Of a stretch of 64,000 nt of DNA, positions 50,105-56,799 are shown piece by piece. The position numbers were made by a program, and so were the translations under genes. Every line of letters begins with the position of its first letter. Position 1 is the stretch's first letter. The stretch is from Luteolibacter sp. SL250 (GTDB lineage Bacteria > Verrucomicrobiota > Verrucomicrobiia > Verrucomicrobiales > Akkermansiaceae), in contig NZ_CP113054.1 of the NCBI RefSeq assembly GCF_026625605.1, positions 1,116,001 to 1,180,000 of the forward strand. The letters run 5' to 3'. Under the pieces are notes generated by a model. That model made no database searches. It was not told where the DNA came from and saw only the letters and a program-made list of their open reading frames with translations.

Positions 50105-51667
50105 TCAGGGCGCGTCGTCGGAGACCAGGTTGACCCTCAGTTCGAAAAGGTCCCGGCGGCGGTCCATCAGTGGCGTGACCGACCCGGCCTCGCGGCTGCG
50201 GTAGAGGTCGGTGATGTCCAGGTCGGTGACCAGCATGGTCTCCACGTTGGGGTCCGCCTCCGCCTGGATGCCGTCGCGCGCGAATTCGAAGTCCGAGGGG
50301 GTGAAAACGGCGGCGCGTCCGTAGTGGATGTCCATGGCCGGGACGTCCGGCAGGTTTCCGACCACTCCGGTGGTGACCACGTAGATCTGGTTCTCGATGG
50401 CGCGTGCGGCGGCGCACTTCGTCACGCGCAGGTAGCCCTGGCGGTTGTCCGTGCAGTAGGGGACGAAGAGGATCTCGACGCCCTGCTCCGCGAGGTAGCG
50501 GGCGGCTTCCGGGAACTCGACGTCGTAGCAGATGAGGATGCCGATCTTCGCCTTCGGTGTCTGGATGACGAGGAGGGAGCGGCCGCCGTTGATGCCCCAC
50601 CAAGTCCGCTCCGAGGGAGTGATGTGGAGCTTCGGCTGGGAGACGAAGGTGCCGTCCGGGCGGAACATCATGGCCTCGTTCTGGAGGGATCCGTCCGGCT
50701 GCAGGACCGGATGGGAACCGGCGATGAGGTGGAGGCCCTGCTGGCGGGCGAGGGTGGACATCAGCTCGCGGAACTGCGGGGTCAGGTCCGCGAGGCGACG
50801 GATGCCCTCGCGGGAGCCGGTGGGGTCCATGGCGGAGAGGAGCTGTACGGAGAAGAACTCCGGGAACAGGACGTAGTCCGCGCCGTAGTCCTCCCCCGCC
50901 GTCTCCACGAAGTAGCGGACCTGCTCCGCGAAGTCGTCGAAGCTGTTGATCTTCCGCATCGAGTACTGGACGCAGGCGACGCGCACCTTGCGGTCCTCTC
51001 CTTCCGGAGGCTGGCGGTAGTGTGGGTTGAGCCACTCGATGAGGGTCGCGTAGTTCCTGCTGCGCGGGTCGCGGATGTAGTTGGGCATCACGTCGCGGAC
51101 GACGAATCCCTCGCTGAGCTGGAAGCCCATGACCGGGTCCCGGACGATGCCGTCCTGGACGGCGTGGACGTATTCCTCCGGGGTGTATTTCGCCGCATAC
51201 TGCTCATAGGCCCACAGCCGTCCCCCGGCGAGGATGCGGCGCAGGTTCAGCCGCTTGCAGAGTTCCCGGCGGAGTCCGTAGAGGATCGCGCCGATGCCCT
51301 GGCGGCGGCATGCGGGGTCCACATAGACCTCCGCGCCGTAGAGGGTGTCACCCTTGGGATCGTGGTTGTAGAAATAGCCATCGTCCGTGATGCCGTAGTA
51401 GGTGTGATGGCGGAGCGGGTCACGGCCCATGGTCACGATCAGGCTGGAGGAGACACCGATGATTTCCCCATCCCGCTCCACGATCACCTGCCCGTCTTCG
51501 AAGACCTTCAGGTGGGACCGGAGCTGGTCCTCCCGCCATGCTTCGTCCGTTCCCATGCTGGGCGGGAAGCAACTGCGGTGGAGCCGGATCATCGCGGGGA
51601 TGTCCGCGACCTTCGGGGTGCGGGCGGTGACGGCTCCTGCAGGGTGGTGGATGGTGCGGGGTTCCAT
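50105..51667 (-). CDS. GNAT acetyltransferase-nitrilase (carbon-nitrogen hydrolase) fusion
   Basis: A 520-residue two-domain protein. The GNAT domain is at about 15-200, with the acetyl-CoA loop RRQGIGAIL. The nitrilase-superfamily domain is at about 225-510, with a complete Glu-Lys-Cys triad: E in FPEFF (about 267), K in QPKLHIT (about 343) and C in ICYDVEFPE (about 377). Such fusions are found in many bacteria and act on amides of unknown identity. It is cytoplasmic. Confidence 0.88.
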   Translation of the reverse strand: MEPRTIHHPAGAVTARTPKVADIPAMIRLHRSCFPPSMGTDEAWREDQLRSHLKVFEDGQVIVERDGEIIGVSSSLIVTMGRDPLRHHTYYGITDDGYFYNHDPKGDTLYGAEVYVDPACRRQGIGAILYGLRRELCKRLNLRRILAGGRLWAYEQYAAKYTPEEYVHAVQDGIVRDPVMGFQLSEGFVVRDVMPNYIRDPRSRNYATLIEWLNPHYRQPPEGEDRKVRVACVQYSMRKINSFDDFAEQVRYFVETAGEDYGADYVLFPEFFSVQLLSAMDPTGSREGIRRLADLTPQFRELMSTLARQQGLHLIAGSHPVLQPDGSLQNEAMMFRPDGTFVSQPKLHITPSERTWWGINGGRSLLVIQTPKAKIGILICYDVEFPEAARYLAEQGVEILFVPYCTDNRQGYLRVTKCAAARAIENQIYVVTTGVVGNLPDVPAMDIHYGRAAVFTPSDFEFARDGIQAEADPNVETMLVTDLDITDLYRSREAGSVTPLMDRRRDLFELRVNLVSDDAP

Positions 51668-53318: not shown

Positions 53319-53416
53319 CCAACCATGGAACTACCTCCGGACGGAACTCAAAGTGAGGGGCTTCCGTGTCTTTTCCATCGCCATCAATGACGGTCTGTGG
53401 AAGATCGGAGACATCC

Positions 53417-54583
53417 ATGATGAACCGCCGTTCCGCCATCGCACTCGCCCTTGGAACCGGAATGGGAGCCATCCAGGGCTGCCGCCGCGACGGCAAGCTT
53501 TCCGCAACCCAGGAAGATCCGAAAATGGCTCCACCCAAAAAAGAAAGAGAAGGACAGAACCTGGTGCCGGTGGAGGTGGACGCCTCGCTGGAGATCCGGA
53601 CCATCGCGGGACTGCGGCCGTTCCGTTCGCCGGGGTTCGTGGTGAAGCGGGAGGAAAGGAACGGGAAGACGCTGGTCCACAACTACGGCCATGGCGGAGG
53701 AGGGATGACGCTTTCCTGGGGGTCGTCGGAACTGGCGGCCCGCCTCGCCGAGGATGTTTCCGGGAAAGAATGCGCGGTGGTGGGGGGAGGAGTCATGGGG
53801 CTGAGCACCGCCCGCCTGCTGCAACTGCGCGGCGCGAAGGTCACCATCTACTCGAAGACCCTGCCGCCCCACACCACCTCCAATGTGGCGGGTGCGCAGT
53901 GGTGGCCGTTTTCCGTTTTCGATGACAACCGGCGGACGCCGGAGTTCGGGGTGCAGTATGTGGAGGCGGCGAACATTTCGTACCGCTACTTCCAGGGACT
54001 GGTGGGGCCGAAGTGGGGGGTGCGCTGGCTGCCGAACTACTACCTGAGTGATGATCCGCCGGTGAACGGATGGATCGCCGGTCCCGGCGGGGTGCTGCAT
54101 GACCTGCAGGTGGGTTTCCATGATTTCGGGCCGGGCGAGCATGTGTTCCCCGCCGCCTACGCACGGCGGTTCCACACGATGATGATCGAGCCGGCCACCT
54201 ATCTGGCGGAGTTGCTGGGAGAGATCCAGGAAGCGGGTGGCCGGATCGTTGTCCGGGACTTCGCCGCAGCGGAGGAAGTGCTGGGGCTGCCGGAGGGCAT
54301 CATCTTCAACTGCACGGGACTGGGTGCGGGGGCGCTGTTCGGGGATGCGGAGCTGGTTCCCATCAAGGGCCAGCTCAGTTTCCTGATCCCCCAGCCGGCG
54401 GTGGACTACAACCTGCTGACGAGCTGGACCTACATGTTCCCCCGTTCGGACGGGATCGTGCTGGGGGGCACGTATGAGAAGGGTAAATGGGATACCGTGC
54501 CGGATGACGGCATGAGGAAGCGGATCATCGAAAGCCAACGGCGGCTTTTCGAGGGCATGAGGAAGATCCAGGCGGAGGGGTGA
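53417..54583 (+). CDS. D-amino-acid-oxidase-like FAD oxidoreductase, apparently circularly permuted, exported
   Basis: A 388-residue protein. The DAAO C-terminal signature (GLRPFRSPG near 64-72 and HNYGHGGGGMTLSWG at 88-102) comes first. The FAD-binding GGGVMG (123-128), which should open the protein, follows. The rest is in normal DAAO order: YSKTLPPHTTSNVAGAQWWP, then NCTGLGA, GGTYEKGKW and a final helix. The N-terminus MMNRRSAIALALGTGMGA with IQGC suggests Tat-type export and a lipobox. A GGAG ribosome-binding site lies 6 bp upstream. It may deaminate a D-amino acid; whether the permuted enzyme is active is unknown. Confidence 0.85.
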   Translation: MMNRRSAIALALGTGMGAIQGCRRDGKLSATQEDPKMAPPKKEREGQNLVPVEVDASLEIRTIAGLRPFRSPGFVVKREERNGKTLVHNYGHGGGGMTLSWGSSELAARLAEDVSGKECAVVGGGVMGLSTARLLQLRGAKVTIYSKTLPPHTTSNVAGAQWWPFSVFDDNRRTPEFGVQYVEAANISYRYFQGLVGPKWGVRWLPNYYLSDDPPVNGWIAGPGGVLHDLQVGFHDFGPGEHVFPAAYARRFHTMMIEPATYLAELLGEIQEAGGRIVVRDFAAAEEVLGLPEGIIFNCTGLGAGALFGDAELVPIKGQLSFLIPQPAVDYNLLTSWTYMFPRSDGIVLGGTYEKGKWDTVPDDGMRKRIIESQRRLFEGMRKIQAEG

Positions 54584-54601
54584 GTAAGACGCAATGTCCT
54601 G

Positions 54602-54770
54602 AGTAAGGAGGGTGGACACTCTTGTCCACCGGCGGCATTGGGAACACAGAGCAATCTGCCTATTTTGATGCCTCATCACTTGCGCTCCTTTGCGACCTTT
54701 GCGGCTTGGCGGTAGATCTTAGGTAGTTTGCCAATGCCGCCGGAGGACAGGAGTGTCCTCCCTCCTTACT
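54602..54770. repeat. REPIN-like element with 40-bp inverted arms
   Basis: The arms AGTAAGGAGG...GGCGGCATTGG (54602-54642) and the near-complement at 54731-54770 match at about 36 of 40 positions. Each arm folds by itself: GGTGGACA-CTCT-TGTCCACC and GGAGGACA-GGAG-TGTCCTCC, differing by a paired, compensatory change. The interior (about 88 bp) holds a TTTGCGACCTTTGCGGCTTGGCGGT-like stretch and no gene. The right arm contains the stop codon of the GH50-like gene. Confidence 0.82.
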
Positions 54771-56799
54771 TCAGCTTTCCGCGCTGCCGGTAGCCGTACA
54801 TGGTCTCGCCCACCTCACGGGTCGCGCGGATGAGTTCCCGGTAGGGCGTGTCCGCGACATCGACGAAGCCGACCTGATAGCCTTCGCCATCCCAGCGGCC
54901 GGTGAGGGGCTGGTCGCGGAACTGGAACCAATGGGTGCCGACGATGTTGGGATGCGTGAGCGCGCCCTGCAGGAAGCGGGTGTAGGCCATGGCGCGTTCG
55001 TCCTGGGTCACGCCGGTGGGGACGGAGCCGGGTGAGAACATGCCGCGGTCCAGCACGCCGAGGTGGAACTCCCCGATGAGCACGGGCATGTCCGGAAAGC
55101 CGTCCGCGCCCAGGTTCGCGGTGCCGTGGGCATAGACGTTCACCGTCAGCACATCGCAGTATTGCCTGCTGGCTTCGAACAGGACACGGCGCACGGCGTC
55201 GGTGGAGATGAAGCGGCTGCCGAGGTAGAGTTTGTCCGGCGCGGAGGTTTTCACCGCGTCCCGGCACAGCCGGAAATACTGGTCCACCGTCTTGCGGAAG
55301 AAGTCGTTCGAGTCCAGGCGGAAGCCCTTCGACTGCGGCACATCCGTCCCGGTGAGCAGGGCATCCCAGTCGCCGTATTTGGTTTCCCACGCTTCGTTCA
55401 GCTTCGCGATGTCGCCGTATTTCTTCTCCAGGTCACCGGCGAATTCCTTTTTCGACGCCTGCGTCGCGGGGCTGCGCATCACATGGTCACCCAGGATCTG
55501 ACGGCCGCGGTTGCCGTAGTTCAGCTCGTTGTCGATGAAGTAGCCGATGCACATGGGATCGGTGGCGGACTTCGCGATGAGCGGGTTGCGGGCGGCGCGG
55601 CGGGTGAAGAGGTTCTTCATCGCCTCCACATAGCGCGGGTCGAAGACGTCGTAGAACTTCAGGTCGCTGCCGGCGATGCGTGGCAACTGCGGGTTGTGGT
55701 CCGCGAGCTGGACGGTGTAGGGCGTCTTGCCCAGGGCCATCAACTCGTAGCCACCCCAGGCGCCGATGGTGTTCATGCCCCAGTGTTCGAGCCGCCGTTC
55801 CAGGGTGGCGTGGAAGTCGGGGAGGTAGTCCGGTTTGCCGTATTTCTTCTCCAGGTTCCAGTGGTTGAAAGGCAGCTCCGTGTCCTTCACCTCGAAGCCG
55901 AACCACTTTTCATGGCCGGTGGATTTCGTGGCGTCCGTCTGGTGGCGCAGCACGTCGATGCCCTGGGAGAAGAACAGGCGGCCCTCCGGGTCCACCAGCC
56001 ACCACTTGCCCTCATGCTTCTCCGTGCGGAAATGTCCGGTCGCCTGGAGTTGCGGACCGTCCGCCCAGCCGCCGAATTTGTTCCACTCCGCAGGCCGCTT
56101 TGATGCGGCCAGCTCCGCCGCCTCCGTGGCGAGGTTCTTTTTCAGATCCCCGTCGGAGTGGATCTTTTCCTTCCACCCGCCATGGATGTTCTGGCCGTAG
56201 ATGTCGATGAATGGGAAATACTTGCCCGGGTCCACATGGGCGGCGCGGTCCGGTTCCCCGGTGAGGCGGAGGTTGGAAATGGTGCAGTCCACCAGTCCGT
56301 CGGCCTTCGCCTCGAAGGGCCACTCCATGTAGAAGTCGATCCAGTTGATCTCCGTGGAGACGACGGTCTTCTGGCCCGGGACGCCGGGAGGCGCGTGATA
56401 GATCTCCGCATGCGGGATGAACAGGTTGAGCGTGCGGGTTTCGCCCGGGTTCACCGCCACGCCGGAACGCACCATCGACTCGTCCTTCGTGTCCCGGGAA
56501 CCGCTGGAGATGTGCATGGTCAGCCGGAGCTGCTTGTCTCTGGAAAGGTTCCTCACGTCGGCGGCCAGCACCTTGCCTTTTGAGAAATCCCAGTGGGTCT
56601 GCCCGGCGGGCGGCATCACCCGCAGGCCGGAGTTCCAGCCGGGATCGTCGATGCGGAGTTTGACAGCGCCGCTGCCGTCCGGCTCCACGGCGATGGTGGC
56701 GGAGCCTTTTTTCCTGAACTGGTCCGGGGCGACGGAAAGGGGTGTATCCGCCCACGCTGCGGTCAGCGTGGCGGCGAGGCAAACGATCGCGAATCTCAT
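54766..56799 (-). CDS. Secreted GH50-like glycoside hydrolase (beta-agarase-like)
   Basis: A 677-residue exported protein (MRFAIVCLAATLTAAWA). Residues about 30-190 form a carbohydrate-binding-like beta domain; residues about 230-670 form a TIM barrel. The likely acid/base Glu is E425 in DNELNYG, and the nucleophile is E577 in IGEFHLG, as expected for clan GH-A/GH50-type enzymes. GH50 proteins include beta-agarases; the real substrate could be another galactan. The TAA stop lies in the neighbouring REPIN arm. Confidence 0.85.
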   Translation of the reverse strand: MRFAIVCLAATLTAAWADTPLSVAPDQFRKKGSATIAVEPDGSGAVKLRIDDPGWNSGLRVMPPAGQTHWDFSKGKVLAADVRNLSRDKQLRLTMHISSGSRDTKDESMVRSGVAVNPGETRTLNLFIPHAEIYHAPPGVPGQKTVVSTEINWIDFYMEWPFEAKADGLVDCTISNLRLTGEPDRAAHVDPGKYFPFIDIYGQNIHGGWKEKIHSDGDLKKNLATEAAELAASKRPAEWNKFGGWADGPQLQATGHFRTEKHEGKWWLVDPEGRLFFSQGIDVLRHQTDATKSTGHEKWFGFEVKDTELPFNHWNLEKKYGKPDYLPDFHATLERRLEHWGMNTIGAWGGYELMALGKTPYTVQLADHNPQLPRIAGSDLKFYDVFDPRYVEAMKNLFTRRAARNPLIAKSATDPMCIGYFIDNELNYGNRGRQILGDHVMRSPATQASKKEFAGDLEKKYGDIAKLNEAWETKYGDWDALLTGTDVPQSKGFRLDSNDFFRKTVDQYFRLCRDAVKTSAPDKLYLGSRFISTDAVRRVLFEASRQYCDVLTVNVYAHGTANLGADGFPDMPVLIGEFHLGVLDRGMFSPGSVPTGVTQDERAMAYTRFLQGALTHPNIVGTHWFQFRDQPLTGRWDGEGYQVGFVDVADTPYRELIRATREVGETMYGYRQRGKLK

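Follow-up and report, generated by a model that had tools for sequence, protein, structure and literature searches.

Evidence for a natural circular permutation of a D-amino-acid oxidase-type flavoprotein in Luteolibacter and distant bacterial relatives

The closest described relatives of the flavoprotein considered here are D-amino-acid oxidase (DAAO) and D-aspartate oxidase (DASPO), which are its best PDB matches by both sequence and fold. In DAAO a carboxylate-binding arginine (R283 in the pig enzyme) and a tyrosine (Y228) are the substrate residues, and an HNYGHGG signature is typical of the DAAO/DASPO family. The canonical chain runs from the dinucleotide-binding GxGxxG motif through GxRPxR to HNYGHGG. 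Glycine oxidase (ThiO) and the D-amino-acid dehydrogenase DadA belong to the same DAO superfamily and are not known to be permuted. Permutation as such has a precedent among flavoproteins: the circularly permuted FMN-bind1 proteins, bacterial and extracytosolic, represent a natural permutation described with AlphaFold models (PMC11334425). These proteins differ in having another fold and covalent FMN, and the accessible part of that paper suggests no kinship with DAAO. A search of the open-access literature with permutation terms, a coverage outside which most subscription journals lie, found no paper on a permuted DAAO. As far as this literature goes, the protein presented below is built from the parts of DAAO in a new topology.

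The gene lies in a 64,000-nucleotide stretch of the Luteolibacter sp. SL250 genome (contig NZ_CP113054.1, positions 1,116,001 to 1,180,000), hereafter the window, whose numbering is used throughout. Its open reading frame (53417-54583, + strand) encodes 388 residues with zero internal stops, and by eye a Shine-Dalgarno-like GGAG (53407..53410, +) sits 6 nt before an ATG at 53417 and 9 nt before another at 53420. All main segments of DASPO (6rkf) and DAAO (1dao) can be recognized in the protein, together with GxGxxG, GxRPxR with the R283 equivalent, H.YGHGG and the Tyr228 equivalent. It differs from them in the rotated order of these parts, in a leader and linker placed in front and in the lack of an active-site lid, and is 22-28% identical to them in structural alignments. 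The leader (residues 1-22; 53417..53482) and a linker of low conservation (residues 23-48; 53483..53560, as judged from dN/dS over residues 1-48 against the relative L008) are followed by a moved segment (residues 49-112; 53561..53752), which sequence and profile matches equate with the canonical C-terminal part and which presumably supplies, as in DAAO, the substrate strand, the HNYGHGG loop and a FAD-contacting helix. This segment holds GLRPFR (residues 65-70; 53609..53626), whose R67 aligns with pig DAAO R283 once the alignment is re-rotated, and HNYGHGG (residues 88-94; 53678..53698), whose H88 aligns with pig H307. Alignment and motif spacing place the junction of the old termini at residues 113-117 (53753..53767). 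The remainder (residues 118-388; 53768..54580) matches the canonical N-terminal and middle part, namely the FAD beta-alpha-beta fold and the substrate domain, by sequence, profile and fold; it carries the dinucleotide-binding motif as GGGVMG (residues 123-128; 53783..53800), found by motif search, and Y339 (54431..54433), the residue aligned with pig Y228. A 431-residue antisense open frame (53384-54679, - strand) spans the whole gene; such frames are also open in L056 and, in shorter form, at the other loci of the same clade, and probably just reflect the high GC content of third positions.

The motifs GxRPxR, HNYGHGG and GxGxxG thus start at residues 65, 88 and 123, an order that departs from the canonical one. 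With phmmer, human DASPO 6rkf matches the protein in two swapped pieces, query residues 118-371 covering chain residues 14-264 and query residues 57-113 covering chain residues 277-336 (i-Evalue of the second stretch 5.5e-6), and pig DAAO 1dao gives the same two-piece swapped match. The Pfam DAO profile, run on the organism's own genome, tells the same story within one gene, where profile positions 293-353 come first (E 5.5e-7) and positions 2-304 follow (E 7.6e-25). As a control, three other proteins of this genome are collinear with the profile nearly end to end (1-353, 2-350 and 3-351). The swapped profile order is far beyond chance. It bears out the original prediction that DAAO segments occur here in rotated order, with the GLRPFR-to-HNYGHGG stretch, first put at residues 64-94, now measured at 65-94. 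The prediction that the protein ends where the GxRPxRP strand would follow also agrees with the alignments, in which the new C-terminus falls just past the helix preceding that strand in canonical proteins.

How are the old ends joined? Between HNYGHGG and strand beta1, clade a, clade b (both defined below) and L044 have 23 residues, with 24 in L001 and L005 and L006 left out, and clade c has 27. In seven of eight canonical-order bacterial and archaeal proteins 17-24 residues follow HNYGHGG, the eighth having 48. The earlier proposal that about 20 residues join the old termini needs correcting: the window protein has 23 residues there, but since canonical proteins mostly carry a tail of 17-24 residues anyway, the added linker amounts to only a few residues, and the old ends are joined almost directly.

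Structure models were computed from five alignment rows. A model of the whole protein reached a mean pLDDT of 54.8, and one of residues 48-388, without the leader, was better (pLDDT 63.4, pTM 0.70). In the latter, residues 78-147 have ten-residue mean pLDDT values of 86-95, except for 67 at residues 88-97; residues 48-67 fall below 40 and much of the substrate domain is poorly predicted. The shorter model contains a hairpin (73-81/84-92), a helix (100-111), beta1 (118-122), a second helix (126-137) and beta2 (141-146). All 29 PDB matches that Foldseek returned for it at E<=0.001 are DAAO or D-aspartate oxidase, as are 33 of the 36 for the whole-protein model, the rest being MnmC, opine dehydrogenase and one tryptophan synthase chain. 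Residues 117-385 of the shorter model superpose on DAAO (VIA) residues 1-275 with Z 13.5 and an rmsd of 3.2 over 175 aligned residues, in an alignment by a sequential aligner that leaves the moved segment unmatched; the whole-protein model has its best Z (14.6) with human DASPO (rmsd 4.7, 240 aligned), also from a sequential aligner. These models suggest that the protein folds like DAAO. The possibility that residues 60-105 form an unrelated domain is contradicted by the sequence profiles; the models, with their partly low pLDDT, agree in part only.

The rotated order was sought in related genomes, and 20 distinct proteins show it; their sources are Verrucomicrobiota, the window's phylum, together with Alphaproteobacteria, a single actinomycete and IMG/VR contigs. 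Close relatives share 90% (L008), 68% (L009) or about 63-66% (L001, L002, L004, L010) identity with the window protein and also include L049; L001 and L002, both from Verrucomicrobiales and 65% identical, came from one search of wider genome contigs. More distant members are 30-48% identical to it where measured. Five of them (L005, L006, L052, L053, L054) represent further families within the Verrucomicrobiota sample; the others are proteins of Niveispirillum, Kozakia, Rhizobium and Bradyrhizobium (Alphaproteobacteria) and Nonomuraea (Actinomycetota), and those of the IMG/VR contigs L044 and L045. Fourteen plasmid records gave a match, five with an intact permuted gene, one with a broken permuted copy (Mesorhizobium) and seven in canonical order (L037-L043); record H12, with the same organism and match as H11, was left out of the order counts. 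In the Mesorhizobium copy (L036:3735-4798) a frameshift interrupts the GxGxxG region, and the annotation lists two genes. Record L034 (NZ_LT559118.1), 11.85 Mb in length and labelled a plasmid, is probably a chromosome. A mis-assembly or chance joining of two FAD-protein fragments was considered as a source of the rotated order and is refuted by these relatives: the same order, in one open frame, recurs in 20 distinct proteins from many assemblies, complete plasmid records included, and both segments are under purifying selection. Nothing in its favour came to light, and we give this explanation practically no weight.

Scans of IMG/VR brought up three contigs with permuted genes, L044, L045 and L046, the last two coding the same protein; four more contigs that were listed, L071-L074, are outside this count. 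At L044:1-5022 and L046:422-3523 the permuted gene comes directly after a terminase large subunit gene, and a portal gene lies further down in L044, so that both sit inside phage-like or GTA-like structural clusters. A phage origin was considered and rejected: 50,697 phage records yielded zero matches at E<=1e-4.

In a sample of 387 genomes of the phylum, a profile of permuted proteins (E<=1e-20) matched 10 genomes, and a canonical-order profile at 1e-15 retrieved the same 10; up to five candidate places per genome were scored in both scans. At these thresholds nine of the ten genomes with a DAAO-type match carry the permuted form, and one (L055) the canonical form. The canonical-order profile returns two separate swapped pieces, each at E<=1e-15, for four of the nine. 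All four permuted members with annotation in the records opened are labelled simply 'FAD-dependent oxidoreductase'. A class that is generically annotated and whose members are split by profile searches is easily overlooked. Within the window's genus the gene occurs in 4 of 73 genomes, its own included, a patchy distribution.

To place these proteins in a tree, the 20 permuted sequences were rotated to canonical order and joined by eight canonical bacterial and archaeal proteins and, from eukaryotes, by human DASPO and pig DAAO, each as a fragment. The canonical-order set, L037-L040, L042, L043 and L055 from bacteria and L041 from a haloarchaeon, has the same motifs and a similar core size, and differs from the permuted proteins in its order and in lying outside their branch. 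The tree omits L046 (protein identical to L045), the frameshifted L036 and a series of repeats (L003, L007, L013, L020, L047, L048, L050, L051, L066-L070, L075-L079, L081-L093); L080 is canonical L055 again, L011, L012, L014-L019 and L021-L030 are other DAO matches of the own genome, taken no further than the Pfam profile scan that listed them, and L044, whose frame stops before the match ends, was used as is. The 20 permuted proteins form one side of a branch with support 97/92 that appears in 99% of 200 bootstrap trees, and with 99/96 when the two eukaryotic rows are removed. L041 is a long branch, and with the eukaryotic rows present the canonical-order bacterial and archaeal set is no longer one side of a branch. 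Three permuted clades emerge, a (eight proteins, the window's among them), b (six) and c (five), with L044 beside clade a. Because all 20 lie on one side of a supported branch, a single old origin is likely. Taken together, the profile order, the 20 relatives of the same order and their supported branch strongly support a natural circular permutation of a DAAO-type protein.

By which route the rotation arose is a separate matter. The original prediction favoured tandem duplication followed by loss. Alternatively, a canonical gene might have split and its C-terminal piece later been fused on again in front of the rest. This would leave the same trace, so that on the sequences duplication is one possible route. 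A duplicated intermediate, with the C-terminal segment at both ends, is absent from the 28 full sequences (20 permuted and eight canonical-order), which speaks for fission and fusion; against this, profile positions 293-304 are slightly covered at both ends of the window protein, which suits duplication, with match ends too soft to decide. We regard fission and fusion as rather unlikely. Whatever the route, both segments are under purifying selection. In the comparison with L008, dN/dS for the whole protein is 0.12; the moved segment has 0.10, the leader and linker (residues 1-48) have 0.27, and the remainder has 0.11. Four relatives at a greater distance give whole-protein values of 0.17-0.35.

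What might the permuted protein do? The Pfam DAO family (PF01266) matches it at 118.4 bits against a gathering cut-off of 27.9. The best NCBIfam score among the matches shown is glycine oxidase ThiO (TIGR02352), 50.9 of the 250.8 bits required, and both DadA families are far below their cut-offs (NF001933, 22.4 of 383 bits; NF009074, 20.8 of 494 bits). In the re-rotated alignment all 20 permuted proteins have the equivalents of pig R283, R286 and H307 and of the GHGG core, and all 20 have GxGxxG and H.YGHGG. The Tyr228 equivalent is present in 16 of 20. The window protein has both substrate residues, R67 and Y339, and the full HNYGHGG signature at residues 88-94. The four exceptions all belong to clade b and have serine (L006, L031, L052) or glutamate (L035) in this place, hinting at a changed substrate. 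Could the substrate be something other than a D-amino acid, such as glycine, a secondary amine or the amino-acid end of a peptide, with only the fold being DAAO-like? None of the 20 permuted rows has the active-site lid of the pig enzyme (about residues 218-226), which points only weakly in this direction, since human DASPO and the canonical rows have a short lid too, and a serine hydrolase gene and a prolyl-oligopeptidase-type gene lie upstream of the Kozakia gene. On the other hand the R283 equivalent is kept throughout, the Y228 equivalent is kept in the window, and no NCBIfam equivalog is reached among the matches shown, ThiO included. We consider a different kind of substrate improbable, and very probably the window gene encodes a FAD-dependent enzyme of the D-amino-acid oxidase/dehydrogenase type whose fold underwent a single, ancient circular permutation. 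It would bind FAD and convert the alpha-amino group of a small, probably D-, amino acid to an imino acid and then a 2-oxo acid.

The front end of these proteins bears on where they act. By eye, 15 of the 20 have an Arg-Arg, Tat-like leader and the five of clade c have none. In the eight clade-a proteins the Arg-Arg leader is followed by a lipobox-like cysteine, and Cys-Arg after a hydrophobic stretch recurs in all of them; the six clade-b proteins have Tat-like leaders. Inspected in the same way, the window protein has Arg-Arg, a hydrophobic stretch and a lipobox-like IQGC in residues 1-22, likely a Tat-type lipoprotein leader. Judged from the leader, clade a is likely to be exported folded via Tat and then lipid-anchored. 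The earlier remark that such export is odd for this gene does not hold up, given the Tat-like leaders of 15 of the 20 permuted proteins. The leaders also speak for an alternative in which the enzyme is no oxidase but a dehydrogenase, handing electrons from an amino acid to a carrier in the periplasm or membrane and making little or no H2O2. In Kozakia, an alphaproteobacterial member of clade b, the gene right after the permuted one codes for a cytochrome c (PF13442), so the electron acceptor may not be oxygen. This neighbour is known from one locus only, however, and the solved DAAO and DASPO relatives use oxygen; a dehydrogenase is a serious contender that falls somewhat short of an even chance.

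Gene neighbourhoods add further hints. Just upstream of the window gene lies an MFS transporter gene (PF07690; 51762-52940, +), and a 90%-identical frame adjoins the permuted gene of the sister species L056. Comparison of clade-a flanks (window, L056-L060, L001 and L002, with L001, L002 and L058 having short flanks) revealed conserved neighbours shared only with L056; beyond it, the sole shared frames overlie the permuted gene itself. Because its own clade shares no neighbour beyond L056, the function of the window protein rests on homology and active-site residues. Two further frames flank the locus: a putative exported glycoside hydrolase (54766-56799, -; weak PF02449 match, 24.7 bits) and a 520-residue frame (50105-51667, -) that, judged by eye, resembles an acetyltransferase joined to a nitrilase-type domain.

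Clade b in the window's phylum has a divergent Rid-family gene (PF01042) beside the permuted gene in four of four loci (L061-L064), a pairing absent from the window's clade. L061 and L064 have three Rid stretches, and L062 and L063 one that passes. These proteins are 424-448 residues long with leaders by eye, the L064 frame being over-long at its start. L061, L063 and L064 each have a P-x-R-T motif, whose arginine we take to be the catalytic arginine of Rid proteins, in their first repeat and again in their last; L062 has it in its last repeat. The alphaproteobacterial Niveispirillum locus of clade b has a glycosyltransferase-like frame before the permuted gene, and no Rid gene was noticed there. 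In Pseudomonas the dehydrogenase DadA is reported to release an imine that the Rid protein DadY removes (PMC9714295). Clade b resembles this system in combining an amino-acid-oxidizing flavoprotein with an imine deaminase, and differs from it in the length of the Rid proteins, their up to three stretches, their leaders and a pairing by neighbourhood only.

At the clade-c plasmid loci a TPP enzyme gene follows the permuted gene in four of four (L032, L033, L034 and the broken L036, which is off the tree and 52% identical to L033). This enzyme is nearest to indolepyruvate/phenylpyruvate decarboxylase at 194-222 of 554.5 bits, below the cut-off. The Rhizobium locus has a berberine-bridge-type oxidase too, and by eye no decarboxylase lies next to the permuted gene at L045/L046 and L054. 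In rhizobia and Nonomuraea a cytosolic permuted DAAO acting with a TPP enzyme in a biosynthetic cluster is possible. Since oxidation of amino acids yields imines and 2-oxo acids, Rid and decarboxylase neighbours, each known from clades other than the window's, both fit it.

Based on these observations, we propose a model for the permuted enzyme. The C-terminal block, with its arginine strand, HNYGHGG loop and FAD-contacting helix, would have moved before the dinucleotide-binding strand, and the re-formed beta-alpha-beta fold would bind FAD. The chemical steps would be those of DAAO: R67 and Y339 would hold the substrate carboxylate, the alpha-carbon would give up a hydride to the flavin, the imino acid would leave and then hydrolyse, and the flavin would be reoxidized by oxygen or a respiratory carrier. 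In clade a the enzyme carrying out this chemistry is likely to be a lipid-anchored protein that Tat has exported already folded. More broadly, and tentatively, with the balance leaning slightly against us, we suggest a monophyletic, undescribed DAAO-fold class that acquired its permuted topology a single time, came to occupy at least three phyla and then split in two. One branch would be exported and anchored at the surface, acting as an amino-acid oxidase or dehydrogenase and in part paired with its own exported Rid protein for imine deamination; the other would be cytosolic and supply a 2-oxo-acid decarboxylase within a biosynthetic pathway.

What are the implications of a permuted DAAO? DAAO is a textbook flavoenzyme, and its FAD fold evidently tolerates a near-direct joining of the old ends and a reopening before the substrate strand. 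A natural permutation of this kind is a ready scaffold for biosensors and engineering. If the proposed class is real, it would also provide a natural test of whether carrying an export leader or anchor was what the new N-terminus was selected for.
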